From assembly GCA_900317565.1 (NCBI GenBank), contig ONHI01000027.1:1-37419 (forward strand): a stretch of 37,419 nucleotides of DNA, in the 5' to 3' direction. Below, piece by piece: positions 3,071 through 28,929 of the stretch (position 1 is the first letter of the stretch; the number at the start of each line of letters is the position of its first letter). The notes beneath the pieces are model-generated. The model had not been told where the DNA came from and did no database searches. It saw only the letters and a list, made by a program, of their open reading frames with translations. This DNA is from an uncultured Eubacteriales bacterium (GTDB taxonomy: Bacteria > Bacillota > Clostridia > Christensenellales > Aristaeellaceae). Both the position numbers and the translations under genes were made by a program.

Positions 3071-3508
3071 TCATGCGTTTTCCAGAAACAATTTCTGGCG
3101 GTCGATGGTCTCGTTCTGCTGCACCACGAATTTGCTGGCGAGGCTGCGCGCGCCGGGGTCCGCCGAGTCGTAGCTGTTCAGCGCCTTGGTCATCTCGATC
3201 ACGCCCATGGTGGCGCCCTGGATCACGATCTCGGCGATGTGGGCGTCGCTGCGGTCGGCCAACGTCTCCATCTCGATGCCCATCCACATGCCCGCCTTCG
3301 CCATCGGGCCCACCGGTTCGGCGCGGCCCCCGGCGTCCAGCAGCGCCTGCTCGCTCTCCCGCCGGGTGGCGGCGTATTCCTGCTGCTCCTTGCGCAGCTC
3401 GCTGCGCATGGTGGCGTCCTCCGCCTTCTTCATCAGCTGTGCCACCGCGTCCTCGCCCGTGCGAGCGTTGCGCACCACGTCCTGCAGGAGCTGTACCGTG
3501 TCGTTCAT
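3071..3508 (-). CDS. Ferritin-like four-helix protein of unknown function
   Basis: This is a 145-residue soluble, almost entirely helical protein without signal peptide or membrane segment. It resembles small clostridial proteins, often annotated as DUF2383/ferritin-like, that share the pattern of an N-terminal MNDTVQLLQDV helix, a central PMAKAGMWMGIEM and a C-terminal helix ending near KFVVQQNETIDRQKLF. Glu, Asp and His residues are spread over the helices, but I cannot assign a di-iron site with confidence. ATG 3508 is preceded by GGGAGG. The gene is followed by the separate promoter of the response regulator. Family naming is from recalled resemblance. Confidence 0.65.
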   Translation of the reverse strand: MNDTVQLLQDVVRNARTGEDAVAQLMKKAEDATMRSELRKEQQEYAATRRESEQALLDAGGRAEPVGPMAKAGMWMGIEMETLADRSDAHIAEIVIQGATMGVIEMTKALNSYDSADPGARSLASKFVVQQNETIDRQKLFLENA

Positions 3509-3535
3509 GAAAAGACCTCCCTTGATTTAGTCAGC

Positions 3536-3579
3536 AGATTCTTGACGCTTCGCCAGGCCTGGCGAAGCGTCAAGAATCT
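3536..3579. repeat. Perfect 44-bp palindrome, dispersed repeat
   Basis: Two 22-bp arms meet without a loop; the centre is GCCAGGCCTGGC. The right arm recurs almost unchanged at 7386-7406 inside the longer repeat downstream of murG. It belongs to the family whose common form reads like GATTCTTCGCTTCGCTCAG. It lies between the start of the ferritin-like gene and the RadC-like gene terminator. No T-run follows on either strand, so it is not a standard terminator. Confidence 0.85.
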
Positions 3580-7268: not shown

Positions 7269-7448
7269 AAAAAGCGCATGTGCGCCAGAGTCATTAAGTA
7301 AGCAGATCCTTCGCTTCGCTCAGGATGACAAACGATCCGATATCGTCATTCTGAGCGGAGGCGCAGCCGAAGTCGTGGCCGCAGGCCTGGCGAAGCGTCA
7401 AGAATCCACTTCCTTTTCCGTTAATGACATTGGCCCAGGCGCTTTTTT
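7268..7448 (+). terminator. murG terminator split by a repeat insertion
   Basis: Outer arms AAAAAAGCGC (7268-7277, starting at the stop codon) and GCGCTTTTTT (7439-7448) are perfect complements. They are followed inward by GTCATTA (7290-7296) and TAATGAC (7422-7428). Between them lies a repeat of about 123 bp. The arrangement reads as a terminator hairpin whose loop was entered by a repeat. Confidence 0.6.
7298..7420. repeat. Dispersed GTCATTCTGAGCG-type repeat pair flanked by TTAA
   Basis: The left half (CCTTCGCTTCGCTCAGGATGAC, read in two parts at 7308-7329) and a longer right half starting GTCATTCTGAGCG at 7345 are in inverted orientation. The right half ends in GGCGAAGCGTCAAGAATCC, matching the palindrome at 3536-3579. 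TTAA is found directly on both sides (7294-7297 and 7421-7424). Related copies are at 25698-25728 and 28813-28888. Such repeats are known from many bacterial genomes; their mechanism is not established. Confidence 0.75.
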
Positions 7449-12060: not shown

Positions 12061-12180
12061 GGGTAATATGTCTTTAGCGAAAAGATAGAGATCGCTGTTA
12101 TTTGGGATGATGGTTTTCTGCTGATTGGTTTGTGCGAATAGCATCCGTTCGTTTAAGGGATACGAGGGACGCATCTTTTT

Positions 12181-12269
12181 GGCGGCTTGCCTTCAGAACC
12201 AGGAACTTCGCCGGCTGCCCACATCGCGGTCAGCCTGGCTCGTTCAATGGTTCTCGCCGGCAAGCCGCC
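12181..12269 (+). repeat. Structured module, subfamily I copy A1
   Basis: This 89-bp unit has terminal arms GGCGGCTTGCC/GGCAAGCCGCC, a second helix GAACCA/TGGTTC, a third helix GGCTG/CAGCC and an apical loop CCCACATCGCGGT. The same architecture recurs at 12562-12650, 22040-22127, 24360-24447 and 24749-24837 with compensatory changes. Confidence 0.85.
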
Positions 12270-12561
12270 GTTTGCGTGGAAAAACGACCGGGGACCTCTT
12301 CCGCCCCCTGCGGGGGCACCTCCCATGGGCCTGACCGGCCCGTCCTCACTGGAAAATGTCCACTGGACATTTTCCCGGGCGCTCGGACCCCCAAAGGGGA
12401 AGGCAAGGGATTGACGAGCAATGGACAGCAAATAGCCCCATCTGTCCCGCCTACGGCGGGTCAGATGGGGGTGAATTTGCAATCTGATGATCGTTGTTTC
12501 CAAAGCCTCCCCACCGCAGTGGGGAGGTGGCCCACAGGGCCGGTGGGGCTCTCCTCGTCAC

Positions 12562-12650
12562 GGCGGTTTGCCGGCGCAAACCATTTGGACAAGGCAGCGC
12601 GACCGCGATGTGGGCGCGCGCCGCAGTTCTGGTTTGGAAGGCAAACCGCC
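12562..12650 (-). repeat. Structured module, subfamily II copy A2
   Basis: Read on the minus strand it has terminal arms GGCGGTTTGCC/GGCAAACCGCC (a C-G pair changed to T-A relative to A1), second helix AAACCA/TGGTTT, third helix GCGCG/CGCGC and the same loop CCCACATCGCGGT. Confidence 0.85.
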
Positions 12651-12704
12651 AAAACTGATAGGGATGCGTGTGGAGAACCTGTATATGCATATTACTGTGC
12701 ATAT

Positions 12705-13649
12705 TTATTCGTTACTATTTTTTGCTATATTGCCATACATCCCAAACCCGCACGCACATCCGAGCAGGATCGCCATGCACACATACGGAATCTCCCGGAA
12801 CAGCGGATGGTCATAGCTGATCCATCCCGCCAGCTCAGGCGCACCCACCAGTACAGCGAGCAGGGCGACGATGAGCAGCGTCCAATTCATAGGCGCGGCC
12901 TCCCTGGGAGCCCTGCGGAAGGGCACGCGACAGGCCGCGTACACCGCGAGCCCCGCGTACAGCGGCAGGGCCGTGGCGCCGCCAAACCCCGTAAAATGCG
13001 CAATTCCAAGCCAAAGCGCCGGAAAGAGCGCGGTTTGTAGCAGCGCCAGCGGCGTGCGGCGCAGCGGCTCCGGGTTCAACCGGGGGCGAAGCCTGCCGCC
13101 CACGCACAGGCTGACCGCCAGTCCCACCAGCGCGGAGGCGCCTGCGGCGATCAGCGGCCAGAGCATGTTCCAATCCTTGGGGTCGGCAGAAGCGCCCTCC
13201 CGCGGGGCGCAGAGAAGCATGCCCGCCAGCGTCAGTCCGGAGGTGATGCAGCGGCACAGCTGCGCGCTGCCCGGGTCTCCCACCGCGAATAAATATTCAT
13301 AAAATACATGCTCGACGTTGAGCAGCAGCCCGCAGCCCACCAGCGGCAGCAGCATGGGCACGGGATGGAAACGGCGTCCCAAAACCATGGCGATGCCAGC
13401 GCCCGCGCATTGCATCAGCAGCGCGATCAGGGCGCTGCCCTGGGCATAGCGCCCGGAGGGCTGGGCGGCGAAGGCGGTCCGCAGGCCGTCGGCAGTGGCC
13501 AGCGCGCACAGCTTGACGCCGTACCAGGCCAGAAACAGTTCAAAGGCGAGATTGCCGCGCCTCAGCAGCGCGGCCACGAGAAAGGCCAACGGCAGCAGCG
13601 CGTCCGTCGGCCTGAAAAGTCTGTAGGGCAGTTTTCGGGTCGGTCTCAT
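12705..13649 (-). CDS. Polytopic membrane protein of unknown function
   Basis: The product has 314 residues with about nine to ten hydrophobic segments (roughly 15-30, 38-55, 72-90, 98-115, 132-147, 162-184, 200-217, 222-240, 254-270, 286-304) and short basic loops. No family motif was recognised. ATG 13649 is preceded by GGAGAA at a slightly long distance. It is followed by composite element A and preceded, on the same strand, by the YycJ-like gene about 100 bp away, so co-transcription is possible but unproven. The reading frame is well supported by the GC-rich third codon positions typical of its neighbours. Confidence 0.7.
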   Translation of the reverse strand: MRPTRKLPYRLFRPTDALLPLAFLVAALLRRGNLAFELFLAWYGVKLCALATADGLRTAFAAQPSGRYAQGSALIALLMQCAGAGIAMVLGRRFHPVPMLLPLVGCGLLLNVEHVFYEYLFAVGDPGSAQLCRCITSGLTLAGMLLCAPREGASADPKDWNMLWPLIAAGASALVGLAVSLCVGGRLRPRLNPEPLRRTPLALLQTALFPALWLGIAHFTGFGGATALPLYAGLAVYAACRVPFRRAPREAAPMNWTLLIVALLAVLVGAPELAGWISYDHPLFREIPYVCMAILLGCACGFGMYGNIAKNSNE

Positions 13650-13751
13650 GGGTTGTATTCTCCATAATTTTTTTTTGCAGATTTATGAGGAGTTGCCCCT
13701 TCCCCGGGTTTCTGTGATGAATATATATTCCACATTTTCCGCGACTATGCC

Positions 13752-14561
13752 TCACACCATCTGCGCGGAGATGCTGAACATGCCGGTGGTGCCGTCCCGG
13801 CGGGCGATGTACAGCTGCACGTCCTCGTGGGGCACGATCCCGGCCATTTGCAGCGTCAGCTCGCAGGAGCGCATGGCCAGCTCCGGGAAGTTGTTCTCCT
13901 TGCTCAGGTGGCCCAGTATGATCTGCCGGGTGCCGCTGCGCACCAGCTCCACGGCCACCGCCCCGGCGTCGTCGTTGGAAAGGTGCCCGTGGCGGGACAT
14001 GATGCGCTTTTTCAATTCATAGGGATATGGCCCGGCCTTCAGCATGTCCGGATCGTAATTGGACTCCAGCAGCACCGCGTCGGAGCCCAGCACGTGGTTC
14101 AGCCAGCCGTCCCGCACGCAGCCCAGGTCCGTGGCCACGGCCAGCTTCGAGCCGTCCAGCTCGAAGGTATAGCCCACCGATTGGGCGGCGTCGTGGGGCG
14201 TGGAGAAGGGCGTCACGTCGATGGAGCCGATAAAAAAGTCCTGCTCCGGCTCGAAGAGTATCCGGTTTTTGTCGGCGATGGGGCCGATCTTGTTGTACAT
14301 GGCCTGCCAGGTGCCCTCCGTGGCGAACACGGGCAGGTCGTATTTCCGGGAGAGTATGCCGATGCCCTTGATGTGGTCGGCGTGCTCGTGGGTCACCAGT
14401 ATGGCGTCCAGGCAGCGCGGGTCGATGCCCACCCGGGCCAGCTCCGTGCAGACCCGGGTGCCCGACATGCCCGCGTCCACCAGTATCTGGGCGTCGTCGC
14501 AGCCCACGTATAGCGCGTTTCCGCTCGACCCGCTGAAAAGCGGCGAGAAGCGAAGCTCCAT
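13752..14561 (-). CDS. Metallo-beta-lactamase-fold hydrolase, YycJ/WalJ-like
   Basis: The product has 269 residues with the metal-binding motif THEHADH (57-63), further ligands at STPHDAAQS and in ATDLG, and a late H in LGHLSKENN. Opening residues FSPLFSGSSGNALYVG are typical of YycJ/WalJ. In Bacillus-type genomes this gene belongs to the walRK cluster and is linked to cell-wall and DNA-repair phenotypes; the molecular substrate is uncertain, with single-strand nuclease activity proposed. Here the two-component pair lies 11 kb away across the origin. ATG 14561 has GAGAGG about 12 bp upstream. The PflX-like gene lies upstream on the same strand. Confidence 0.85.
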   Translation of the reverse strand: MELRFSPLFSGSSGNALYVGCDDAQILVDAGMSGTRVCTELARVGIDPRCLDAILVTHEHADHIKGIGILSRKYDLPVFATEGTWQAMYNKIGPIADKNRILFEPEQDFFIGSIDVTPFSTPHDAAQSVGYTFELDGSKLAVATDLGCVRDGWLNHVLGSDAVLLESNYDPDMLKAGPYPYELKKRIMSRHGHLSNDDAGAVAVELVRSGTRQIILGHLSKENNFPELAMRSCELTLQMAGIVPHEDVQLYIARRDGTTGMFSISAQMV

Positions 14562-14636
14562 CTGCTTTAGTACCTCTCTTTTTGCAATAAATATGACGAA
14601 ATATCGCCCGTTATCGGGGTAAATATGACAAAATCG

Positions 14637-15515
14637 CTACACGCCCGTCAAATCAAAGGCGGGGATGTACTTTTCGTCCGACGAGGAGAGCTCCTGCACG
14701 AAGCCGTCCTCCAGGCCAAGCTCCAGCAGATGGTCCACCACCGCGTTGTATTCCTCCTGGTTCAGGCGGCGGTCCAGCTGGTCCAGTCCCGCGACGCTGC
14801 CGAAGGGCAGGTATTGGGCCATCAGGCTCACCCACGCCCCGGGCAGGTTCTCCGCGATCCAGTCCAGTATGGCCTTGGATTCCTCCACGCAGCCCGGCAG
14901 GATCAGGTGCCGCACGATCATCCCCCGGCGTATGATGCCATCCCCGTCCAGCTCCACCGGCCCCACCTGGCGCAGCATCTCCCGCAGCGCGGGCCCTGCC
15001 TGGTCGAAATAGTCCCTGGCGGCGGAGTATTTCCGGCCGGAATCCGGGAAAATGTACTTCAGATCCGGCAGATAGACCTGTACCTTGCCCTCGAAGCGGC
15101 GCAGGGTCTCCACGTTTTCGTAGCCGCCGCTGTTCCAGACCACCGGCACAGGCAGCCCGCCCTCCAGCGATTCCAGTATCGCCCGGGCGAAGTGGGTCGG
15201 GTTCACCAGATTGATGTTCAGCGCGCCCTGGTCGATCAGCTCAAAGTAGATCTCCCGCAGTCTTTCGACGCTGACCCTCCTGCCAAACCCATCATGAGAG
15301 ATGGGATAGTTCTGGCAGAAGCGGCAGCGCAGCGCGCAACCGGAGAAAAACACCGCGCCGGAGCCCTTCGTGCCGCTGATGACGGGTTCCTCGTCGAAGT
15401 GGAGCGCCGCCCGGGCCAGCACCGGCTCCGCGCCCATGCGGCAGAAGCCGCTGCCGGTCTCGCCCCGCAGGACCTCACAGGCCCGGGGACAGTCTGAGCA
15501 GATATAGGGCGTCAT
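14637..15515 (-). CDS. Radical SAM protein, PflX-like (COG1313 type)
   Basis: The product has 292 residues. The N-terminal Cys-rich stretch CSDCPRACEV and GFCRMG precedes the radical SAM cluster motif CALRCRFCQN (Cys-x3-Cys-x2-Cys), with the SAM-binding region in NLVNPTHFA and VVWNSGGYE. This matches the PflX-type subgroup related to pyruvate formate-lyase activating enzymes; the substrate of this subgroup is not established. ATG 15515 has GGGAGG eight bases upstream, and an extended -10 element TGTATAAT lies near 15558-15565. No formate-lyase-like glycyl radical enzyme is in the window. Confidence 0.85.
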   Translation of the reverse strand: MTPYICSDCPRACEVLRGETGSGFCRMGAEPVLARAALHFDEEPVISGTKGSGAVFFSGCALRCRFCQNYPISHDGFGRRVSVERLREIYFELIDQGALNINLVNPTHFARAILESLEGGLPVPVVWNSGGYENVETLRRFEGKVQVYLPDLKYIFPDSGRKYSAARDYFDQAGPALREMLRQVGPVELDGDGIIRRGMIVRHLILPGCVEESKAILDWIAENLPGAWVSLMAQYLPFGSVAGLDQLDRRLNQEEYNAVVDHLLELGLEDGFVQELSSSDEKYIPAFDLTGV

Positions 15516-15591
15516 GGCGCATGCCTCCCATCCGGTGAACGCATTTCAGGTCTGTCCATTATACACCGCCAATGTTATCATCGCTCGGCAA

Positions 15592-15607
15592 TGTTTCACG
15601 TGAAACA
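15592..15607. other. parS: parS site 1 (ParB/Spo0J centromere)
   Basis: TGTTTCACGTGAAACA, a perfect 16-bp palindrome identical to the Bacillus-type parS consensus. Confidence 0.93.
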
Positions 15608-15661
15608 TTGTTTTTCGCAAAAACCCGACGGGGTTCGAGGGGCGTTCGACGCGAACCGAAT

Positions 15662-15677
15662 TGTTTCACGTGAAACA
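15662..15677. other. parS: parS site 2
   Basis: TGTTTCACGTGAAACA, identical to site 1 and 70 bp from it. Confidence 0.93.
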
Positions 15678-15723
15678 TTATGGATTGCGCGAATGTGGAG
15701 GGTGTGTAGATGCGATATAGGAA

Positions 15724-15842
15724 ACTCCCTCCGTCAGCCCTTCGGGCTGCCACCTCCCTCGAGGAGGGAGGCTATATATACCTTTGTCCACAAAAGGCTC
15801 CCTCCCTGAGGGAGCTGGCACGCGAAGCGTGACTGAGGGAGT
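15724..15842. repeat. Inverted pair of CTCCCTC-hairpin repeats between parS sites
   Basis: A unit of about 48 bp at 15724-15772 (hairpins AGCCC/GGGCT and CCTCCCTC/GAGGGAGG) faces a homologous unit in reverse orientation at 15796-15842 (GGCTCCCTC…, CACGCGAAGCGTG, ACTGAGGGAGT). The pair could fold into one large cruciform. This repeat type is common in gut Clostridia. Together with the parS sites it fills the 410-bp gap between the PflX-like gene and the phosphoesterase. Confidence 0.8.
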
Positions 15843-15907
15843 AAAATATCTTTCTCCTCTCCGACAGTCGAAAAGAAATCACCTGTTATTTCAACTCATC
15901 AATAGAT

Positions 15908-15923
15908 TGTTTCACGTGAAACA
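15908..15923. other. parS: parS site 3 in a 30-bp palindrome
   Basis: TGTTTCACGTGAAACA with the palindrome extended to 15901-15930 by AATAGAT/ATCTATT. The extension contains the stop codon of the minus-strand phosphoesterase gene. Confidence 0.93.
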
Positions 15924-15925
15924 AT

Positions 15926-16843
15926 CTATTGCCGCCGCAGCGTGATCAGCCATACCTCCGGCGCGGTGCCCAGGCGCAGGTTCAGGCCCTCGCAGCCGAC
16001 GCCCTCCGTGACCAGTATGGGCAGGTAGTTCTCGATGGTCCAGCCCGTGCGATAGCGCTGCTCCTGGGTGTTCAGCGGCAGCATATTCCTGCCGAACAGC
16101 CGCACCTGGCCGCCATGAGTGTGGCCGCACAGCGTCAGATCGGACCACTGGCCGCCGTCGGAGGCCTCGCTGGTCAGCAGCACAGGCAGCACCGCCGGAC
16201 CGTAGGCCGTCACGATCACGCAATCGTCCCGCTGAAACGCGCTTCCGGCAGAATTCAGCGCGGCGTTCTCCTCGCATACGCCCACCAGCCACAGCGCGTC
16301 CTCTCCGCGGCGCAGCGCCACGCGGTCGTCGAACAGCGGCAGCACGCCCGCCTCGCTCATCTGGCGGGTGAGGGTATCCCGGTCCGCGTCCTCCGGCGCG
16401 GCGATGGCGTATTTACCCAGGGGCGCGTGAAACTGCCCTATATAATGGAAGAAATCCGAACGCGCGGACAGCTTTTTCCCCGCGATATCCGCGGCCTCGC
16501 CGCCCCTGTTCAGCACGTCCAGCAGGGAAGGTGCGGTGTAATCGCCGCCCAGCAGCAGCACGTCCGGCTCCAGCGATTGCAGGCGGTCGAACAGCGCCCC
16601 GGCCTTCGCGGCGGTGTTCAGCCCGCAAAGATCGATGTCGGAGGCGTAGAGTATCCGCGTGCCGTCGAAGGAGGCGGGCAGGTCCGGCAGGATGACCTCC
16701 GCCTTGCGCACGCGCACCACGGAGGCATTCACGACCCCGATGCCCGCCAGCAGCAGTATAAAGAGCAGCAGCGCCGCGAACGCGGCCAGCATGATCCTGC
16801 CCGCGCGACCCATCCTCTTGTTTTTCCTCTGACTTCTGGCCAT
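15926..16843 (-). CDS. Metallophosphoesterase-like membrane-anchored protein, degenerate
   Basis: The product has 305 residues with an N-terminal membrane anchor (about 17-40). The frame resembles YkuE-type calcineurin-like phosphoesterases: ILYASDIDLCG (64-74), LLLGGDYT (97-103) and CGHTHGGQVRLFG (239-251). Several ligands of the family are missing: the His of D-x-H is Asp71, GNHD is replaced by APED (149-152), and the H-N-P block reads AYGP (213-216). Activity is therefore doubtful. ATG 16843 has GAGGG five bases upstream; the frame is open 28 codons further, but that part lacks a binding site. The stop codon sits in the parS-3 palindrome. Transcription diverges from the next gene. Confidence 0.8.
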   Translation of the reverse strand: MARSQRKNKRMGRAGRIMLAAFAALLLFILLLAGIGVVNASVVRVRKAEVILPDLPASFDGTRILYASDIDLCGLNTAAKAGALFDRLQSLEPDVLLLGGDYTAPSLLDVLNRGGEAADIAGKKLSARSDFFHYIGQFHAPLGKYAIAAPEDADRDTLTRQMSEAGVLPLFDDRVALRRGEDALWLVGVCEENAALNSAGSAFQRDDCVIVTAYGPAVLPVLLTSEASDGGQWSDLTLCGHTHGGQVRLFGRNMLPLNTQEQRYRTGWTIENYLPILVTEGVGCEGLNLRLGTAPEVWLITLRRQ

Positions 16844-16965
16844 AAAACCCTCAAAAACACCGCAATAACGGCTTTTTTGCGACAATTCGGACCGCATTGC
16901 GCCGCAGGTGTGACGCCTTTGCCCCAAATATACGCTTTTTGCCCGCTTTTGTTACAACAGCGTCG

Positions 16966-16994
16966 TTGCAACGGGGACCGACTTCTATTATAAT
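16966..16994 (+). promoter_or_regulatory. Strong promoter for the beta-propeller/cvpA genes
   Basis: TTGCAA (16966-16971), a 17-bp spacer and a perfect TATAAT (16989-16994). Predicted transcription starts near 17001, leaving a leader of about 70 nt before ATG 17070. Confidence 0.75.
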
Positions 16995-17069
16995 AAGATT
17001 TGGTATGGCATACAAGGGATAGTGTCTCCACTTGTGCCCTGCCCACTAATGAAATAACGGGAGGATTCC

Positions 17070-18170
17070 ATGGAGAGGAACCGAACGGCTCGCCTTCCAT
17101 GGGCAATCGCTCTGTTGATCGTCGTGTTCGTCTGCGTCATCGCGCTGGTGGCCGGACGGATCATCAGCAACGCCACCCACCGCAGCTCCTACGACTACAA
17201 GGCCGTGCAGCTGGCCTCCAACCTGGGGCTCGAGGTCGTGGACGACGGATTTGTCTACTATGACGGCAGCTATATCGGCGCGGTGACCACGGAGGGCCGG
17301 ATCAAATGGTCCTACCTCATCGGCAGGAACGCGGATTTCGACGCCAACGCCAACGGCGTGGCCGCCTGGACCGGCGAATCGCTGACGCTGATCGACAACC
17401 AGACCGGAACGCCGTCCTTCAGCGGCGCGATGGAAAACGACGTGCTCTCCGCCTGCATCGGGGATCGATACACCGCCGTACTGCTGGGGCCGGAATACAA
17501 CAGCACGATTGTCCTGATGGAACCGGGAGGCCGGCGCGTGAACAGCATCACGCTGACCAACCAGACCGTCATTGAATACGGATTTTTCTCGAATGGCTCG
17601 CTGCTGTGGGTCATGAGCCTGGACACCAGCGGCACGGTGCCCAGCTGCACGGTGAACACCTACCGGCCGGGCAAGGAGATGGTGGGCTCCATACACGACA
17701 ACGAGCAGATGATGTACGGCGTCGTGTTCCAGTCCTCCTACTTCTGCTGCGCGGGCGACAACTTCCTGAAGGTCTACGATTACACCGGCAAGGAGGACAG
17801 GACCCGGCGGCGCAAGGTGTACGGCTGGTACATGGCCGCGCTGGACGGCAGCGTGCTGGACGACCCGATGATGGCCTTCGTGCCAAACGCCCAGTATGAC
17901 TCCGAAAAGGGCATGCAGGACGTGCGCATGATCCGCGCCAACCTGGACCAGCAGGTGCGCATGCCCTACGGCTGCCAGTCGCTGATCGCGCGGAACGACC
18001 GCGTCTACGGCTTTTCCACGGAGGGCTTCGTGGCCATCGCCACCCAGGGCAGCAGCACCGTGGAGGCCTACGCCCTGCCGATGCTGTTCGACAAGGTGTA
18101 CGGCGTCACCGCCAACAACATGGCGATTCTCGGGAACGGCAATATCATCTATATATTGAATCTGTCGTGA
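17070..18170 (+). CDS. Membrane-anchored beta-propeller-like protein (DUF5711-like)
   Basis: The product has 366 residues: one N-terminal membrane segment (about 10-32), then a long domain of repeating beta-rich units such as FVYYDGSYIGAVTTEGRIKW, NSTIVLMEPGGRRV and IIYILNLS. This is typical of a propeller facing outward. The pattern resembles clostridial DUF5711 proteins, whose function is unknown; the match is from memory of the family's appearance. ATG 17070 has GGGAGG upstream. cvpA follows after 73 bp, so both probably share the promoter at 16966-16994. Confidence 0.7.
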   Translation: MERNRTARLPWAIALLIVVFVCVIALVAGRIISNATHRSSYDYKAVQLASNLGLEVVDDGFVYYDGSYIGAVTTEGRIKWSYLIGRNADFDANANGVAAWTGESLTLIDNQTGTPSFSGAMENDVLSACIGDRYTAVLLGPEYNSTIVLMEPGGRRVNSITLTNQTVIEYGFFSNGSLLWVMSLDTSGTVPSCTVNTYRPGKEMVGSIHDNEQMMYGVVFQSSYFCCAGDNFLKVYDYTGKEDRTRRRKVYGWYMAALDGSVLDDPMMAFVPNAQYDSEKGMQDVRMIRANLDQQVRMPYGCQSLIARNDRVYGFSTEGFVAIATQGSSTVEAYALPMLFDKVYGVTANNMAILGNGNIIYILNLS

Positions 18171-18243
18171 CCGGCGCGTATGTCCCGCCAAAAAATGGGT
18201 AAACTGGGGACGTGCGCAAACTTCCTTCAAAGGGGGATAGGAT

Positions 18244-18981
18244 ATGAACCTGAATCTGTTGGACATCACGATCATCGTGATACTCGCGTTCTACCTGATA
18301 TCGGGCATGTACCGCGGGTTCATCACTTCGCTCCTGGGGACCTTCGGGTTTGTCGGCGCGTGGTTCGGCGCGCAGCAGCTCTACCCGCGGGTGGCGCAGC
18401 TGGCGCTGGGCAACCAGACGCTGATGGCCGTGCTGAACCAGTACCTGGAGCCGGAGACCTTCTTCACCACCCACAGCCAGGCGGTCAGCACCGTCTCGGA
18501 GGTCATCGCCGGGGGCGAATCAGCCATACAGAACGCCGTCTCCCCGGTGGCCCAGAAGCTGGCGGTGGTCGCCAAGGCCTTCGAGGCCAACGTGCGGGCG
18601 CAGATGTTCCAGCGCCTGGGCATCAACACCCTGGCGGATTACCTGGACCAGACGATCTGGCAGGCCGTGTTCAACGTCACCGCCTTCATACTGTGCTTCA
18701 TCGCGCTGTATGTGCTGGCCTGCCTGGTGGTCAACCTGCTGGATCACGTGATCTCCTTCCCGCTGGTGCGCGGCTTTGATTGGCTGCTGGGCGGCATATT
18801 CGGCATCGCCCGGGGTCTGGTGGTGGTCGTGCTGGTGCTGTGCCTGCTGCCCTCGCTGGTGCAGATCGTGTCCCCGGAATTCGCGGACAACCTGCGAACG
18901 GGATCGTCGCTGTACAGCTTCGTCACCCAGATGGACTTTTTGAACGTCAACAACCTGGTGACGAGCCTGATCGGCGGCTGA
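18244..18981 (+). CDS. CvpA family membrane protein
   Basis: The product has 245 residues with four hydrophobic stretches (about 7-24, 26-45, 143-168, 183-206). It opens with NLLDITIIVILAFYLISGMYRGF, quoted here only to its first part as the typical CvpA start with the motif Y-R-G-F. Family members are linked to colicin V production and envelope homeostasis in Gram-negatives; in Firmicutes the role is unclear. The start ATG has AAAGGGGG upstream. It ends in a terminator-like hairpin at 19005-19049, ahead of ftsK. Confidence 0.85.
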   Translation: MNLNLLDITIIVILAFYLISGMYRGFITSLLGTFGFVGAWFGAQQLYPRVAQLALGNQTLMAVLNQYLEPETFFTTHSQAVSTVSEVIAGGESAIQNAVSPVAQKLAVVAKAFEANVRAQMFQRLGINTLADYLDQTIWQAVFNVTAFILCFIALYVLACLVVNLLDHVISFPLVRGFDWLLGGIFGIARGLVVVVLVLCLLPSLVQIVSPEFADNLRTGSSLYSFVTQMDFLNVNNLVTSLIGG

Positions 18982-19004
18982 CCTGAATTGGACATCACTG
19001 TGAC

Positions 19005-19049
19005 AAAACCCCATCTGATACCGTTAAATGCGGGTCAGGTGGGAGTTTT
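19005..19049 (+). terminator. Terminator after cvpA
   Basis: AAAACCCCATCTGA pairs with TCAGGTGGGAGTTTT (one bulged base, one G-T pair) and ends in TTTT. The outer A and T runs allow function mainly on the plus strand. Confidence 0.65.
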
Positions 19050-19095
19050 GCGTCAAGAGGCGCTGCATCAATCCTGATACGGAGGTATTCATCCC

Positions 19096-21918
19096 TTGGC
19101 TTCAAGAACTGTAAACAGTCGACAGCAATATGAGGAGCGGGACGCGGGCTCCAGCGCGCCGATGCTGATTTTGGCGGCGGTGGCGCTGTTCGGTGTGGCG
19201 ATACTGCTCATTTACATCTGCGTCGCCTCCCCCCAGCAGGGCACCAGCATGGGCGCGATCCGGGACGTGATGCTCGGCCTGGGCGGCAGCCTGGCCGTGG
19301 CGCTGCCGCTGGTGCTGGTGTGGGCCGGCGTGCTGTGCATCGGTGCGGCACGGGGCATGCGCCTGTCGCCGCTGCGGGTCGCCGCCGACGCGCTGCTGAT
19401 CATATGCCTGTTCACCGCCGTGCACATATTCTTCGCCGAGCGCATACGGCTGGAGCGCATGACCATCATGGGCTACGCCAACTTCGTCTCCAAGTCCTAC
19501 GGCTACGGCATGGGCGGCGGGGCCATCGGCGCGCTGCTGGCCTGGCCGCTGTACCGCAACCTGGGCGTCGCCGGGGGCTTCATCGGCACGCTGCTGATCG
19601 CCGTGCTGCTGCTCACCGCCACGGGCAGGCTGGGCAAATTCATACGGTACATGAACAACCGCGGCGAGGAGACCCGGGAGCGCCGCAAAAACGAACGTGA
19701 GTTCGATGATTTTGAGCAAAAACCGGCCCGTCCGGCGGCCCGCAGCCGCGCCAACCGGGATCCCTTCAGCGAATCCGTGCTGGGCAGCGCGGGCGGCAGC
19801 GCCCAAAAGCCCCGCCGGACGGCGCAGCAGCCCTCTCGCGGCCAGGAGCCGCGGCGCAGGAGCGATCCTATGAGCGACGACGCCTTCAACGGCAGGCCCG
19901 CCCGGGCGGCGAACCAGCCCGCCCGCAAGCGCCGTCCCGCCGGTGACGCCGTCGTGGATAGTGCAGGTGTCCGCGCGGCCGCGAAGCCGAAGCCGGAGGC
20001 CCCGAAGAGCGCGCCGAAGAAGCGCAAGAAGCTGTACAACGAGGTCATGGAGGAGGCGCCGGAGAAGAAGGACGAGCTGTTCGACGACTTCGACGATTTC
20101 GACCGCCTGGAGGCGGAGAGCAACGCCTACGAGGAGGTCCGCGGCACGGCGAAGAAGGCCCGCAAGCCCTTCACGCCGGACAGGCCCTCCATGCTGAAGC
20201 GGGATGTTGAGATCGTGGACATTCCGGACGCGGCGCCTGAGGATGTGCCGCCCGCCGAAGACATCCCGGTGGTGAAGGCGGACAGGAAGAGCAACGTGTC
20301 CATCGACGATCTGAAGATCCAGCCGGACGCCTACGAGCTGCCGGACGACGAGGACGAGCCGCCCTTCGACGTGCCGGACAAGAAGAAGGCCGGGAAGGCG
20401 GATACCGTGGAGGCGGGCATCGCCGAGAAGAAGCTGCCGAAGCTGAAGCGGATCAAGGAACCGGAGCCCGCGGACGACGATCCGCCGCCCTACAACTATC
20501 CGCCCATCGACCTGCTGGCCCAGGGCGAGGTGGAGGACACCTCCGCCCACGGGCAGCGCGACATGCAGAAGGCCAAGCTGCTGGAGGAGACGCTGGCCAG
20601 CTTCGGCATATCCGCCAAGCTGACGGGCATCGCCCACGGCCCGGCGGTCACCCGCTTCGAGCTGCAGCCGGCCCCGGGCGTGAAGGTGAGCCGCATCACG
20701 TCGCTGTCGGACGACATTGCGCTGAACCTGGCGGCGATGTCGGTGCGCATCGAGGCGCCCATCCCCGGCAAGGCCGCCGTGGGTGTGGAGATCCCCAACG
20801 ACAAGGTGGAGATGGTGCGCCTGCGCGACGTGCTGGAGTCCTCCGAGGCGCGCAAGCATCCGTCCCGCATCGCGGTGGGCCTGGGCAAGGACAACTCGGG
20901 CCGATACATCGTGGCGGACATTGCGAAGATGCCCCACGTGCTGATCGCGGGCCAGACCGGCTCCGGTAAGTCGGTGTGCATCAACGCCATCATCGCGTCG
21001 ATACTGTTCCGCTCCTCGCCGGAGGAGGTCAAGCTGATCCTGATCGACCCCAAGGTGGTGGAGCTGTCCATCTACAACGACATCCCCCACCTGGTCTGCC
21101 CGGTGGTCACCGACCCGAAGAAGGCCGCCAGCGCCCTGGATTGGGCCGTGGCGGAGATGACGAAGCGCTACAAGCTGTTCGCAGAGCGGGGCGTGCGCGA
21201 CATCAAGGGCTACAACAAGGCGCTGAAGCCCGGCGAGAAGTTGATGCCTCAGATGGTCATCATCATCGACGAGCTGGCCGACCTGATGATGGTCTCCCCC
21301 GGCGAGGTGGAGGACAGCATCTGCCGCCTGGCCCAGCTGGCCCGCGCCTGCGGCATGCACCTTGTCATCGCCACGCAGCGCCCGTCGGTGAACGTCATCA
21401 CCGGCATCATCAAGGCCAACATCCCCACCCGCATCGCCTTCTCGGTGGCCTCCCAGGTGGACAGCCGCACGATGATCGACCACGGCGGCGCGGAAAAGCT
21501 GCTGGGCAACGGCGATATGCTGTTCGTGCCCAACGGCATGAAGTCCATGCGCGTGCAGGGCGCCTGGGTGTCCGACGAGGAGGTCCACTCCATCGTGGAG
21601 TACATCAAGCAGTCCGGCGAGGCCAATTACGACCCCGACATGCTGGAGCACATGGAGAACGCCACCCGCACCGACGCCGAGAAGGAGGAGGTCGATTCGG
21701 AGTACGATCCGAAGCTGCCCGAGGCCGTGGACATCGCCATCGACCTGGGCCAGGTCTCCATATCGATGCTGCAGCGCAAGATGCGCATCGGCTATGCCCG
21801 CGCGGGCCGCATCATCGACGAGATGTCCCGCCGGGGCATCGTGTCCGAGGCCGACGGCTCCAAGCCCCGCGAGGTGCTCATCACCCGCGAACAGGCCCAG
21901 CAGATGTTCGAAGAATAA
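19096..21918 (+). CDS. ftsK: DNA translocase FtsK/SpoIIIE
   Basis: This septum-located DNA pump moves chromosome ends through the closing septum. The product has 940 residues: four N-terminal membrane segments (about 20-180), then a charged Arg/Lys/Pro/Glu-rich linker (about 195-480). The ATPase motor has Walker A GQTGSGKS (619-626) and Walker B MVIIIDE with Asp725-Glu726. The C-terminal winged-helix gamma domain SMLQRKMRIGYARAGRIID reads polar sequence guides. The start is TTG at 19096 with GGAGG 10 bp upstream; no ATG fits. In many Clostridia rimO and pgsA follow; here they lie 7 kb away in opposite orientation. Confidence 0.96.
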   Translation: MASRTVNSRQQYEERDAGSSAPMLILAAVALFGVAILLIYICVASPQQGTSMGAIRDVMLGLGGSLAVALPLVLVWAGVLCIGAARGMRLSPLRVAADALLIICLFTAVHIFFAERIRLERMTIMGYANFVSKSYGYGMGGGAIGALLAWPLYRNLGVAGGFIGTLLIAVLLLTATGRLGKFIRYMNNRGEETRERRKNEREFDDFEQKPARPAARSRANRDPFSESVLGSAGGSAQKPRRTAQQPSRGQEPRRRSDPMSDDAFNGRPARAANQPARKRRPAGDAVVDSAGVRAAAKPKPEAPKSAPKKRKKLYNEVMEEAPEKKDELFDDFDDFDRLEAESNAYEEVRGTAKKARKPFTPDRPSMLKRDVEIVDIPDAAPEDVPPAEDIPVVKADRKSNVSIDDLKIQPDAYELPDDEDEPPFDVPDKKKAGKADTVEAGIAEKKLPKLKRIKEPEPADDDPPPYNYPPIDLLAQGEVEDTSAHGQRDMQKAKLLEETLASFGISAKLTGIAHGPAVTRFELQPAPGVKVSRITSLSDDIALNLAAMSVRIEAPIPGKAAVGVEIPNDKVEMVRLRDVLESSEARKHPSRIAVGLGKDNSGRYIVADIAKMPHVLIAGQTGSGKSVCINAIIASILFRSSPEEVKLILIDPKVVELSIYNDIPHLVCPVVTDPKKAASALDWAVAEMTKRYKLFAERGVRDIKGYNKALKPGEKLMPQMVIIIDELADLMMVSPGEVEDSICRLAQLARACGMHLVIATQRPSVNVITGIIKANIPTRIAFSVASQVDSRTMIDHGGAEKLLGNGDMLFVPNGMKSMRVQGAWVSDEEVHSIVEYIKQSGEANYDPDMLEHMENATRTDAEKEEVDSEYDPKLPEAVDIAIDLGQVSISMLQRKMRIGYARAGRIIDEMSRRGIVSEADGSKPREVLITREQAQQMFEE

Positions 21919-21945
21919 ATAGGTTGCTGTGGGTAAAATGTATCC

Positions 21946-21980
21946 GTCCCCTTGCGCCTTTGATTCAGGCGCAAGGGGAC
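21946..21980. terminator. Stable hairpin after ftsK, candidate terminator
   Basis: GTCCCCTTGCGCCT and AGGCGCAAGGGGAC form a perfect 14-bp stem with a 7-nt loop. No T-run follows on the plus strand, so termination is likely but not certain. Confidence 0.55.
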
Positions 21981-22035
21981 GTTATATATGTCGCAGTCGG
22001 TTTGTGAAGCATCGGATTTCCACAGAATGCGCTTG

Positions 22036-22330
22036 TCACGGCGGCTTGCCTTACAAACCAGAACTGCGGCGCGCGCCCACATCGCGGTCGCGCTGCCTTG
22101 TTCAATGGTTTGCGCCGGCAAGCCGCCGTGACAGAGGGTGCCCCACCGGCCCTTCGGGCCACCTCCCCACTGCGGTGGGGAGGCTTTTGGAACAGCGAAA
22201 AATAGGGTACAAATTCGACCTCATCCGACCCGCCGCTTCGCGGCGGCCCACCTGACGCTCGTATAATTCGCTGGGCTTTCGGCCCCCATGAGGGAAGAAT
22301 TGGTTTCCATTACTCGTCCAACTATCCGTG
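22036..22330. repeat. Half composite element B
   Basis: A structured module (22040-22127, arms extended to a perfect 15 bp TCACGGCGGCTTGCC / GGCAAGCCGCCGTGA at 22036 and 22131) is followed by hairpins CCGGCCCTTCGGGCC and CCTCCCCAC/GTGGGGAGG (22162-22183). Further hairpin-rich DNA (GCCGCTTCGCGGC near 22232-22244) continues to the end of the 423-bp gap. About 145 bp (22049-22193) is repeated almost exactly, in the same orientation, at 24369-24513. The partner module I is missing. Confidence 0.85.
22040..22127 (+). repeat. Structured module, subfamily II copy B
   Basis: This 88-bp unit has arms GGCGGCTTGCC/GGCAAGCCGCC, second helix AAACCA/TGGTTT, third helix GCGCG/CGCGC and loop CCCACATCGCGGT. 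It is the least decayed copy. Confidence 0.85.
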
Positions 22331-22341
22331 AAGAGCCTTTT

Positions 22342-23874
22342 TTATTCTATTACCTCGCATTTGGTAAGTTCTGGATCACCAAACAACCCTAAACCATCGC
22401 ATACTCCTCGAATAACGACCTTTTGATCTTTTCTCAAAGAGGCTACTTCATTCAGCTTTTCTTCTCCAAAATAACAATATACATCGTTAATTCCCCATTC
22501 ATCCACATATAGTAAAACAGTGTATGTTGTACTAAAAAGGAAGGATGTTGAATCAATTGAATATATGGTTCCGGATACTTCGATGGTTTTTCCTTTCAGT
22601 TCCGCATCTGCAGCAACCTCGTTCTGTTTGTACTGTTCATATAGTTCGACGCTTGTATATCTTTGCACTTTTTCAGGAACAGATGTTATACTCTGTTCTA
22701 TCAAATCAAATAGAGATTGTGTCACATTTCCATCTGCAGTTAGTTTATTGGCTTTCTGGAAGGATAAAACTGCCTTCTTTGTCTTGTTTCCAAAATTGCC
22801 ATCGGCACTGCCGGAGAGAAAACCCAGTTCATGCAGATATTCTTGTAGAATTCTGACATCCTCACCTGTAGAACCGAGTTGCATAATGACCGGTTCAGTA
22901 TCAGTATCTAAGCTGCTGGATATGCCGTTATTACCGGAAACAGCACTGTTTACAGCAGATACATCAATAGAAGAGGACATGTCTGTATCCGAGTTTACGA
23001 GTTCTCTGTTATCAAGGACAATATCATCTCCAATAGAAAGATACGTCAAGGTATATTGGCCATTAATGGGATAGGCTTCAGAATAGACATCCATATCACT
23101 CTTTCCCGCACTACTTTTGACAGTTACAGGTGCGGTGAAGGTGTAGAGGTCCCAATCATTGGTATATGTATAGTCAAACCAAGGCCAAGAAATGGTGGAA
23201 TCTCTTTCGGATAAGTATTTTTCTGTTGCAGTAACTGTCATAGAGCGAATAGTATCCGTTACAGATGACTTCGGCTCGTGATTTCTTTTCAGTTCATCAG
23301 TTGTTTGATTGAGCAAACTATGAAGTTCATCAGTAGTATAATCAGTCAGGTTTAATCCTGTGATGGAGCTGATGATAGGTTCCGGTTCTTTATCCCAGAT
23401 GGAATTTGGAAGCATATTTCTTGAATCTATGATAGCTTCATTTCCAATAGTTAAATAATAGATTTGTATATTATCATCAACTGAGAATAATTCTGAATAT
23501 ACATTGGGTTCTTGTTTTTTATTATTTGAATCACGATATTCTACATGTGTGGACACGGTATACAAGTCTCCATCTCTGGAATACGAATAATCAAACCACG
23601 GCCATGAAACAGAGATGTCCTTTTTATCAAAATAGGATTCAACAGAGGTCTTAACACGACCAAGTAGCTCGGATTCCAGGTTAGAAGATGTACTGTGGTA
23701 TAGATCGATCACTGAACTGATTTCATCCATGAATTGTAGTAATTCTTCACGAGAAGTTCTTGATAGATTCAATTGGGACACTTCAGCTGATCCAAATGAG
23801 TATAGGAAGAGACTGGCGATCACGATGAGAATGAGAATTCGAAGCAGAGCTTTAAGTGATGTGTGCCTATTCAT
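22342..23874 (-). CDS. Secreted protein with duplicated N-terminal domain, peptidoglycan-binding domain and OB-fold-like C-terminus
   Basis: The product has 510 residues. A signal peptide or anchor lies at about 9-30. Two tandem units of about 118 residues (36-153 and 175-292) share VSWPWFDYSYSRDGDLYT / ISWPWFDYTYTNDWDLYT and a later LTIGNEAIIDSR / LSIGDDIVLDNR. A Ser/Asp-rich linker follows, then a PG_binding_1-type domain (332-392: GSTGEDVRILQEYL, DGNFGNKTKKAVLSFQ). The C-terminus (409-510) looks like a tRNA_anti-like OB fold. The function is unknown; an envelope-bound role is inferred. Base composition is far more AT-rich than the surrounding genes, which points to transfer. ATG 23874 has GGAGG. 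The promoter has an operator in its spacer (23912-23940), facing an Xre gene. Confidence 0.8.
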   Translation of the reverse strand: MNRHTSLKALLRILILIVIASLFLYSFGSAEVSQLNLSRTSREELLQFMDEISSVIDLYHSTSSNLESELLGRVKTSVESYFDKKDISVSWPWFDYSYSRDGDLYTVSTHVEYRDSNNKKQEPNVYSELFSVDDNIQIYYLTIGNEAIIDSRNMLPNSIWDKEPEPIISSITGLNLTDYTTDELHSLLNQTTDELKRNHEPKSSVTDTIRSMTVTATEKYLSERDSTISWPWFDYTYTNDWDLYTFTAPVTVKSSAGKSDMDVYSEAYPINGQYTLTYLSIGDDIVLDNRELVNSDTDMSSSIDVSAVNSAVSGNNGISSSLDTDTEPVIMQLGSTGEDVRILQEYLHELGFLSGSADGNFGNKTKKAVLSFQKANKLTADGNVTQSLFDLIEQSITSVPEKVQRYTSVELYEQYKQNEVAADAELKGKTIEVSGTIYSIDSTSFLFSTTYTVLLYVDEWGINDVYCYFGEEKLNEVASLRKDQKVVIRGVCDGLGLFGDPELTKCEVIE

Positions 23875-23911
23875 GTCAATTGACCTCCTAGCGTAATTGT
23901 CTCTTATAACT

Positions 23912-23940
23912 ATTTTAGATAAATATTATCTAAAAGTCAA
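23912..23940 (-). promoter_or_regulatory. Promoter with palindromic operator in its spacer
   Basis: On the minus strand TTGACT (23935-23940), 17 bp, TAAAAT (23912-23917). The palindrome TTTTAGATA/TATCTAAAA (23913-23935) fills the spacer, so a bound repressor would block the secreted-protein promoter. The divergent Xre protein is the obvious candidate. Confidence 0.7.
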
Positions 23941-23993
23941 TAGCTAAATATTTTCTATGCTATATTTTGGGCAATCTATTTGCCGGTGGTGAG

Positions 23994-24212
23994 ATGAGGT
24001 TGGACAATAGGATAAAAGACATGCGAGAAGATTCTGACCTTACCCAGCAGCAGATAGCAGATGCAATAGGTATTACACAAAGAAAGTACAGTTATATTGA
24101 AACAGGAACTCAACCACTTACAGACGAATTGTTGGTCAAATTGGCCAATTACTATCGAGTAAGCATTGATTATCTATTAAGGCAGACAAATAACCCACAA
24201 AGAAACAAATAG
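23994..24212 (+). CDS. Xre-family transcriptional regulator
   Basis: The product has 72 residues and is essentially one helix-turn-helix domain: LTQQQIADAIGITQRKYSYI followed by TDELLVKLANYYRVSIDYLL. It has no effector domain. ATG 23994 follows GGTGGTGAG; a TTG nine codons upstream is possible but less likely. It is AT-rich like the divergent secreted-protein gene, and the two probably entered together. The shared 119-bp spacer holds the palindrome at 23913-23935, the likely operator, so autoregulation and control of the neighbour are inferred. Confidence 0.85.
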   Translation: MRLDNRIKDMREDSDLTQQQIADAIGITQRKYSYIETGTQPLTDELLVKLANYYRVSIDYLLRQTNNPQRNK

Positions 24213-24359
24213 GCAGCATATTCTTTGAAGGATGTGCTGCCTTGTTGTAATATATTCATTGTGCAATTAAGGCGTGCTTTGTTGGTCGTCGATCCCCTCG
24301 CTTCCCCACCGCAGTGGGGAAGTACCCGCGAAGCGGGGGATAGGGCGCCTCTCTGGCAC

Positions 24360-24447
24360 GGCAGCATGCCTTCCAAACCAGAACTGCGGCGCGCGCCCAC
24401 ATCGCGGTCGCGCTGCCTTGTTCAATGGTTTGCGCCGGCAAGGCGCC
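24360..24447 (+). repeat. Structured module, subfamily II copy C1
   Basis: Terminal arms GGCAGCATGCC/GGCAAGGCGCC carry three mismatches, but helices AAACCA/TGGTTT and GCGCG/CGCGC and loop CCCACATCGCGGT are intact. Confidence 0.8.
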
Positions 24448-24748
24448 GTGACAGGAGGTGCCCCACCGGCCCTTCGGGCCACCTCCCCACTGCGGTGGGG
24501 AGGCTTTGGGAGTGACGAGCAATGCAGTACAGAAACGACCACATCTGTCGCGGCCCGAAGGGCCGTGAAGGATGTGGTCGATTTCGCTGTCCATCACTCG
24601 TCCATCCCCTGCCTTCCCCTTTGGGGGTCCGAGCGCCCGGGAAAATGTCCGGTGGACATTTTCCAGTGAGGACGGGCCGGTTAGGCCCATGGGAGGTGGA
24701 CCGCCGTAGGCGGGACGAAAGAGGTCCCCGGTCGTTCCCCACACAAAA

Positions 24749-24837
24749 GGCGGCTTGCCGGAAGGAACCATTGAACGAGCCTGGCTGGCCGCGATGTGGA
24801 CAGCCAGCGAAGTTCCTGGTTCAACAGGCAAGCCGCC
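24749..24837 (-). repeat. Structured module, subfamily I copy C2
   Basis: On the minus strand: arms GGCGGCTTGCC/GGCAAGCCGCC, second helix GAACCA/TGGTTC, third helix TGGCTG/CAGCCA and loop TCCACATCGCGGC. Both closing loop positions differ from A1. Confidence 0.85.
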
Positions 24838-24936
24838 AAAAATCTGCGTTCCCCGTTTCCCCGAACGGAGGGATGCTTTTCAAACGAAGCCCTTCAACAG
24901 AAAAGTAATCCCCCAGTCGGGACGAAAAAACTTGTC

Positions 24937-28773: not shown

Positions 28774-28812
28774 AACGCTCTCCTTTGGCGGGGTCATTGC
28801 CGTTGGGGATGA

Positions 28813-28888
28813 GTAAGCGGATTCTTCGCTTCGCTCAGCATGACGGCGTTGCGCTGTCGTGTCATCCTGAGCGCAGCGAAGGATCTGC
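28813..28888. repeat. Dispersed GTCATCCTGAGCG repeat pair
   Basis: GATTCTTCGCTTCGCTCAGC (within 28813-28844) faces GTCATCCTGAGCGCAGCGAA (from 28861) in inverted orientation, forming a hairpin between rimO and pgsA. It is the same family as 7298-7420. Confidence 0.8.
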
Positions 28889-28929
28889 ATCCTTTGGCTC
28901 TCTCCCTTAGGCGGTAAGTCACTCGGGTC

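Follow-up and report, generated by a model that had tools for sequence, protein, structure and literature searches.

A candidate BIME-like family of intergenic DNA hairpin repeats restricted to one genus of uncultured Clostridia

The window analyzed here, a 37,419-nt stretch from an uncultured Eubacteriales bacterium of the Aristaeellaceae (assembly GCA_900317565.1, contig ONHI01000027.1, positions 1 to 37,419), carries five copies of a palindromic module with CCACATCGCGG, which we call H. The explanation that we favor, with a probability of roughly 55%, is that H represents a new, genus-restricted family of non-autonomous intergenic DNA hairpin repeats resembling bacterial interspersed mosaic elements (BIMEs). 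Such a family would be copied and kept as DNA, with either a folded strand, possibly the bottom one, or a cruciform being recognized through the apex and a mismatched internal loop by a trans-acting enzyme, by analogy with TnpA-REP, which reads the hairpins of repetitive extragenic palindromes (REPs), and template switching at the hairpin would help to keep the arms matched.

Anatomy and distribution of the H module

In its own genome (G000, a 3.55-Mb assembly that is 89.8% complete), H is an imperfect palindrome of 88-89 bp with four stacked stems, the third of them, counted from the outside, being short. An asymmetric internal loop separates the third stem from the fourth, which leads to the apex. 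The initial annotation had placed the five window copies correctly, each in coordinates and strand:

12181..12269, plus strand: H module, subtype A, loop TTCG/CTCG (sequence, fold and covariance-model match)
12562..12650, minus strand: H module, subtype B, loop TGCG/CTTG; inverted relative to the 12181 copy, forming an inward pair
22040..22127, plus strand: H module, subtype B; pairing at the foot extends 6 bp outward
24360..24447, plus strand: H module, subtype B; three broken pairs in the outer stem
24749..24837, minus strand: H module, subtype A; inverted relative to the 24360 copy, forming an inward pair

On the strand given, every copy has a better fold than its dinucleotide shuffles do (z from -2.9 to -7.1; of 200 shuffles per copy, two reach the 24360 copy and none the other four). 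The terminal arms had been described as matching, which does not hold for the copy at 24360-24447, where GGCAGCATGCC faces GGCAAGGCGCC with the three broken pairs.

To describe the family we used 89 modules, 33 from the own genome and 56 from nine relatives (ten genomes in all). Most have GGCGG...CCGCC as the outer stem, and the outer-arm sequence varies by species, with seven different perfectly matched 9-mers. The apical loop, called invariant from the five window copies, is so among those five; across the 89 modules it takes the form CAC-NNN-GCG in 83, with several middle triplets (five modules whose apex could not be read by pattern were left out of the triplet counts and of the mismatch-context counts given below). 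The internal loop reads TTCG/CTCG in 53 modules, TGCG/CTTG in 13, 12 of which are subtype B of the own genome, and has other forms in 23. Read from the bottom strand, the commonest loop has GAG opposite CGAA, letters that would allow tandem sheared G.A pairs. By eye, modules of other species usually have CCGRGGAACG...TTTTT on the 5' side and, after ~8 nt, GGGGANCAGCGAG on the 3' side.

A covariance-model search of the genome and of other Clostridia, as the initial annotation had proposed, found many more copies, with significant matches limited to the genus. The first model (R1, from the five window copies) matched 33 distinct places in the own genome at E 3.4e-13 or better; beyond these it gave echoes on the opposite strand and a marginal match in C126 (E 0.085). 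The loop 11-mer was counted 32 times in this genome vs 4 times for the reversed pattern. R1 detected H in 10 of 60 genomes, counting the own one, and nowhere among the 32 from outside the genus. The second model (R2, from 80 rows) gave matches in 11 of the genus's 28 genomes, that is, in 10 of 27 congeners besides the own genome's copies, G021 being the sole weak positive with a single match at E 5e-4. An R2 search of 297 genomes from the order found H in two, both of the same genus, under stricter filters and with 13 candidates scored per listed genome, so that weak or diverged copies could escape. A degenerate pattern covering ACTTCGC...CTCGTTC forms, from which other forms could escape, matched 21 stretches in a collection of 84,980 species. 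Thirteen belong to metagenome-assembled genomes of Clostridia (RUG14601, RUG11065, RUG103 and RGIG5017); RGIG5017 is labelled roe deer rumen, and the RUG names we take to denote rumen genomes. The matches in Saprospiraceae, Opitutia, Myxococcales, Micrarchaeota, Verrucomicrobia, RI_301, Anaeromyxobacter, Acidobacteria and a viral contig were dismissed as chance, none having a significant model match; of these the model listed only L116, at E 0.3 and in a different place. Phage and plasmid collections gave no match to a query consisting of one composite, and a partial literature search, in which the work on stem-loop families (PMC2267715, PMC1590033) was not compared, yielded no description that we recognized as H. 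We conclude that H is restricted to a single genus of rumen-type bacteria, in which some species carry it in dozens of copies.

Covariation of the stems and the choice between DNA and RNA

Within the five window copies, 7 of the 33 pairs predicted by RNAalifold show change on both sides. These copies are not independent, because subtypes A (12181, 24749) and B (12562, 22040, 24360) sit in composites. The wider test used 80 aligned rows, in an alignment fitted to the model and with three opposite-strand echo rows included, here as in the G-U count: 31 of the 33 pairs changed on both sides, giving 482 two-sided cells vs 132 in shuffled alignments, a value reached by none of 500 shuffles, and structures slid along the alignment gave 39-80. 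From the 77 rows left after removal of the echoes we drew 28 representatives under 80% identity, and the outermost model pair was omitted from this test and from the G-U count (32 of 33 pairs used). Among the representatives 29 of 32 pairs changed on both sides; two-sided cells numbered 189, where shuffles gave a mean of 51 and a maximum of 66, and one-sided cells 4. As the signal persists in this set, redundancy does not explain it. The proposal that paired positions change together is thus strongly supported in the wider family, and family-wide covariation excludes copying with random decay as the sole explanation.

The manner of change bears on the molecule involved. Stem cells of H are Watson-Crick in 93.4%, G.T in 0.88% and A.C in 2.03%, whereas 6S RNA, taken as a control from the same genus (27 of 28 genomes), has 12.4% G.U and 0.4% A.C, and its pair table holds 33 one-sided vs 13 two-sided cells by hand count. 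Given 189 two-sided against 4 one-sided cells and the 0.88% of G-U, the stems of H evolve in Watson-Crick steps on both strands, which is the behaviour of a DNA palindrome, through template switching or DNA-level selection, and unlike that of 6S RNA. Template switching at hairpins can also yield two-sided, multi-base compensatory changes (PMC8794818). The initial annotation had read compensatory change around a fixed loop as a sign of selection on a folded RNA or a DNA cruciform. The change is real; the inference to selection goes too far for a DNA palindrome, in which template switching also makes two-sided changes (PMC8794818), and of the two molecules DNA is favored and RNA less so. Selection is better argued from the kept apex and the mismatched loop, even if the window copies overstate how uniform the loop is.

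A structured RNA, either small or carried on an mRNA, is possible but less likely than a DNA repeat. It would most likely be made from the bottom strand, with GAG/CGAA as a loop of the tandem G.A type and a G.U pair at the apex. Conservation of the apex in 83 of 89 copies from ten genomes fits such an RNA, as does the better folding of the bottom than of the top strand in the two copies tried. Single mismatches within helices, counted on the top strand, are A.C (G.U on the bottom strand) in 21 distinct contexts vs G.T in 10, an excess that hints at the bottom strand (binomial p 0.07). An RNA should, however, tolerate G-U pairs, and on either strand these make up 1-2% of stem cells vs the 12.4% of 6S RNA; the 189 to 4 ratio of two-sided to one-sided changes likewise speaks against it, as do the copies in convergent, tandem and divergent gaps alike. 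No Rfam family matched over H in the window at its gathering score, and permissive scans of two stretches gave matches below gathering scores only, the best being to a microRNA family (28.9 bits vs 66, E 0.0008) and lying mostly beside H at L104:3965.

Somewhat less probable still is that H has no selected function and is an old palindromic repeat, copied occasionally, whose arms are matched by template switching. The two-sided, multi-base changes that switching can make (PMC8794818) agree with this, and so do the feet, which pair outward over at least 5 bp in 7 of 33 own copies vs 28 of 1010 crossed pairs, the 23 remaining loops, most of which have one arm changed as would be expected, and the core at L103:2125. 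Switching should nonetheless erase mismatched loops, and 66 of 89 modules keep one of the two forms while 83 of 89 keep the apex. Outward foot pairing is often seen in copies without a T run (C45:1345, C222:37371 and window 22040). In L103:2125-2210 (G002 C1) the H core is replaced by a long, nearly perfect palindrome, which looks as template switching would make it.

Arrangement, genomic context and possible mobility

None of the 89 modules touches a gene call, in loci of which 75.5% was called coding by a home-made gene caller trained on window genes that can miss genes of low G+C content (it missed two at window sites). The gaps are convergent for 20 modules, tandem for 26 and divergent for 15, with 28 unplaced. 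According to the list of open reading frames, each of the three H sites in the window falls between converging genes: mnmE and a neighbor lacking a Pfam match at one, ftsK and a gene for a protein with peptidoglycan-binding domains at another, and a pair of helix-turn-helix genes at the third. These sites first suggested a terminator or another fixed 3'-end element, which the mixed gene contexts rule against; a Rho-independent terminator would have its T run after the hairpin, at the 3' end of a gene, and in H this run instead comes first when the top strand is read, while on the bottom strand the hairpin is followed by a run of A. A host-selected chromosomal repeat bound by protein, in a nucleoid, gyrase-like or terminator role, seems unlikely. 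Its intergenic position, the dozens of copies in some genomes and the sites common to sister species would suit that role, yet 17 of the genus's 28 genomes lack a match, no single gene orientation prevails and subtypes turn over among species.

H modules tend to stand in alternating orientation. Of the neighbor pairs within 700 bp, counted among the copies listed from G000, G019, G002, G024, G016 and G017, 24 of 28 are in opposite orientation (15 inward, 9 outward, 4 tandem; binomial p 0.00018), and 22 of 26 remain so without the G016 and G017 pairs, which had been picked as pairs (p 0.0005). Outward pairs have a start-to-start spacing of 155-187. Tail to tail, modules are joined by a linker of ~70-98 bp with inverted ends (AAAAA...TTTTT), and head to head by a variable inner region; a complete linker beside a single H in G002 reads AAAAAAACCGTTCCCCGGTTCC...GGAAACCGGGGAACGGTTTTTTT, again with inverted ends. 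This is the plan of BIMEs with longer palindromes. The window holds the following parts of it:

12157..12180, plus strand: part of the outer (tail-side) linker, its TTTTT end at the foot of the A module; also found beside the 24749 copy (repeat finder)
12270..12561, no strand: inner region of the first A...B composite, a chain of small G+C-rich hairpins
12290..12404, no strand: ~115-bp repeat within the first composite
22128..22232, plus strand: B-side inner region common to the 24360 copy
24448..24748, no strand: inner region of the second composite, parts of it being inverted copies of 12270-12561
24838..24936, minus strand: outer linker adjoining the A module at 24749 (repeat finder to 24861, the rest by eye)

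According to the repeat finder, 12181-12650 and 24360-24837 are one A...B composite present twice in opposite orientation, with common inverted arms of 116, 123 and 129 nt, and the 22040 copy is a partial composite. By eye, the linker part at 12157..12180 also stands beside most other A copies, and the B module that elsewhere closes an outer linker such as that at 24838..24936 is absent there. Inner regions of the own genome are mosaics, and their ~115-bp repeat also turns up independently of H, at 18 places spread over 14 contigs that have no H match. Apart from H, a short repeat around CCTTCGCTTCGCTCAGGATGAC has three window copies (7297-7329, 28812-28844 and 28860-28894), one of them inverted.

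Among the three guesses of the initial annotation (structured noncoding RNA, non-autonomous mobile element, protein-binding repeat), the mobile element fits best, by virtue of the per-species subtypes, the mosaic composites and the alternating orientation; it and the cruciform have gained support, and RNA and protein binding have gained less. Sequence comparison suggests that H may have transposed. By eye, near-identical copies of a subtype stand at unrelated loci in G000, G024, G002, G019 and G014. The sister species G002 and G019, ~95% identical and largely syntenic in the fetched stretches, have eight H sites in common and differ at no fewer than four, as placed by hand and without every copy covered. 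G002 differs near C30:12310, where the flanks differ too, within C30:29240-29790, where a composite was seen by eye and not in the model matches, and at C36:39460, where it has a second tandem copy; G019 has a tandem pair at C18:6913 and 7127, in which the flanks repeat and the core is of another subtype. The G019 counterpart of G002 C30:24565 is a deleted remnant. In the same comparison, H modules lie at synteny breakpoints (L300:19013, L322:19126-19497 and L304:5265), and G002 has, relative to G019, three clean insertions of ~160 bp (L310:18516-18677, L309:16222-16382 and L315:14824-14988), each of a different sequence. The interval between ftsK and the GH3 gene, considered as an orthologous insertion, has H in G000 and G014, only the latter significant among 25 ftsK loci, and gives no empty site because the intergenic sequence is too diverged.

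In G024 many H copies lie inside a miniature inverted-repeat transposable element (MITE) with terminal repeats CAGGGCGACATCATTTACTTT, and those MITE copies that reach both ends contain the module. The element at G024:C127:4086-4463 (L075) and its relatives measure ~380-420 bp and have terminal repeats CAGGGCGACATCATTTACTTTTG; apparent ~10-bp duplications flank some copies by eye, and the ends presumably resemble those of the ISAs1 family. It is nevertheless highly improbable that H forms an end of an ordinary DDE transposon or of its MITE, because H stands free of this MITE in the other genomes that were read, as some G024 copies do too, one short MITE copy (G024:C227 ~3450-3555) lacks H, and the H pair of G002 C1 flanks host-type genes. 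For H itself, a MITE would call for terminal inverted repeats and a target duplication; its linkers and inner arms are inverted, but no clean empty site turned up. Taken as an empty site, the H-less MITE has its junction at an 8-9 bp direct repeat, GGGATTTT, which deletion explains equally well.

Known repeat systems and the search for a copying enzyme

Like the BIME/REP system served by REP-associated tyrosine transposases (RAYT, or TnpA-REP), H consists of intergenic palindromes in many copies and alternating orientation, with two kinds of linker, dimers of two subtypes and species-specific stems. REPs are defined (PMC6006769, PMC3733652) by a tetranucleotide guide GT[AG]G (or CGTC) at the hairpin foot and a unit of 21-65 nt. 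H measures 88-89 nt in the five copies instead of the ~21-65 nt given there; a GTAG or CGTC tag was not found at the hairpin foot in the 33 own copies, which end there in TTTTT, GTCAC or another sequence; and a search of the own genome detected no Y1 transposase, whereas the REP system has one flanked by the repeat. On foot tag, length and transposase, membership of H among REPs fails. Many copies have a GGGACG motif ~8-10 nt from the foot.

BOX, RUP and SPRITE of Streptococcus pneumoniae (PMC3049150) are similarly small, intergenic and extensively structured by prediction, lack a transposase of their own, are nearly confined to one species group and move slowly. BOX has a boxA-boxB(n)-boxC build with terminal inverted repeats and target duplications, whereas H alternates in orientation. 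The genus has short REPs of its own beside its Y1 genes. These also combine variable stems with a constant loop, and the outer linker of H likewise has GGRACG near the foot, but they are ~25-30 nt long, and H was not found in the 13 Y1 loci fetched from H-bearing genomes. The enterobacterial repetitive intergenic consensus (ERIC) is a 127-bp repeat, a long imperfect palindrome in intergenic positions without a known transposase. It resembles H, by description only, as a long intergenic imperfect palindrome, and it is known as single units.

The Y1 family (PF01797) occurs in 16 of the 28 genomes of the genus, including the copy-rich G002 and G019, and was not found in the own genome, G020 or G024. 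As mobilizer of H it was rejected, since the two do not track each other: Y1 is present in 7 of 10 genomes with H (by R1), the own genome being without it, and in 9 of 18 others. H was found neither in the 13 fetched Y1 loci, which cover every Y1 place on the list for the H-bearing genomes, nor in another four (L212, L213, L216 and L217). Seven Y1 genes that we read (L247, L248, L249 and L251-L254) have short hairpins on their flanks, in which the loop is GGGGACGGTTC-like and the stem differs from gene to gene, e.g., GTGAAAT/ATTTCAC, GAGATA/TATCTC and AGACA/TGTCT. When 303 proteins encoded next to H were clustered, the recurrent clusters among those listed resembled host families by eye (ABC-transporter ATPases, glycosidases), and no transposase-like cluster was seen beside H among them, again by eye and with no family search run. 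The interval between two H modules at G002 C1:72125-75091, considered as an autonomous element, contains host-type genes by eye.

A narrower and distinctly more tentative proposal is that H is the substrate of a hairpin-recognizing mobilization or replication enzyme not of the Y1/RAYT kind, which would make the family a new class of BIME served by a machinery of its own. Such an enzyme would recognize by shape a long fold of single-stranded DNA with its fixed apex (CGC-NNN-GTG on the bottom strand) and mismatched loop, leaving the stems free to diverge.

Several points weigh against a mobile, BIME-like family of DNA repeats. Y1 was not found in the own genome, G020 or G024, although the first and the last are copy-rich; G002 and G019, copy-rich as well, do have Y1 genes. 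The comparison of G002 with G019 gave no clean empty site with a target duplication for H, and of the four differences between them two are tandem copies and another has rearranged flanks. The internal loop is not uniform, 23 of 89 modules having other forms. The scarcity of G-U pairs is judged against one control RNA, 6S, which is more conserved than H, and models built from Watson-Crick copies may favor such copies.

As a BIME-like family of DNA hairpins, H would offer such a system in uncultured Clostridia, one in which the stems diverge among species and the apex stays, and it raises the question of which enzyme copies repeats of this kind where no RAYT is found. Covariation is commonly read as proof of a functional RNA, and H combines very strong covariation with almost no G-U pairs. 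This suggests that a simple G-U count could separate DNA-level from RNA-level constraint in candidate RNA repeats.

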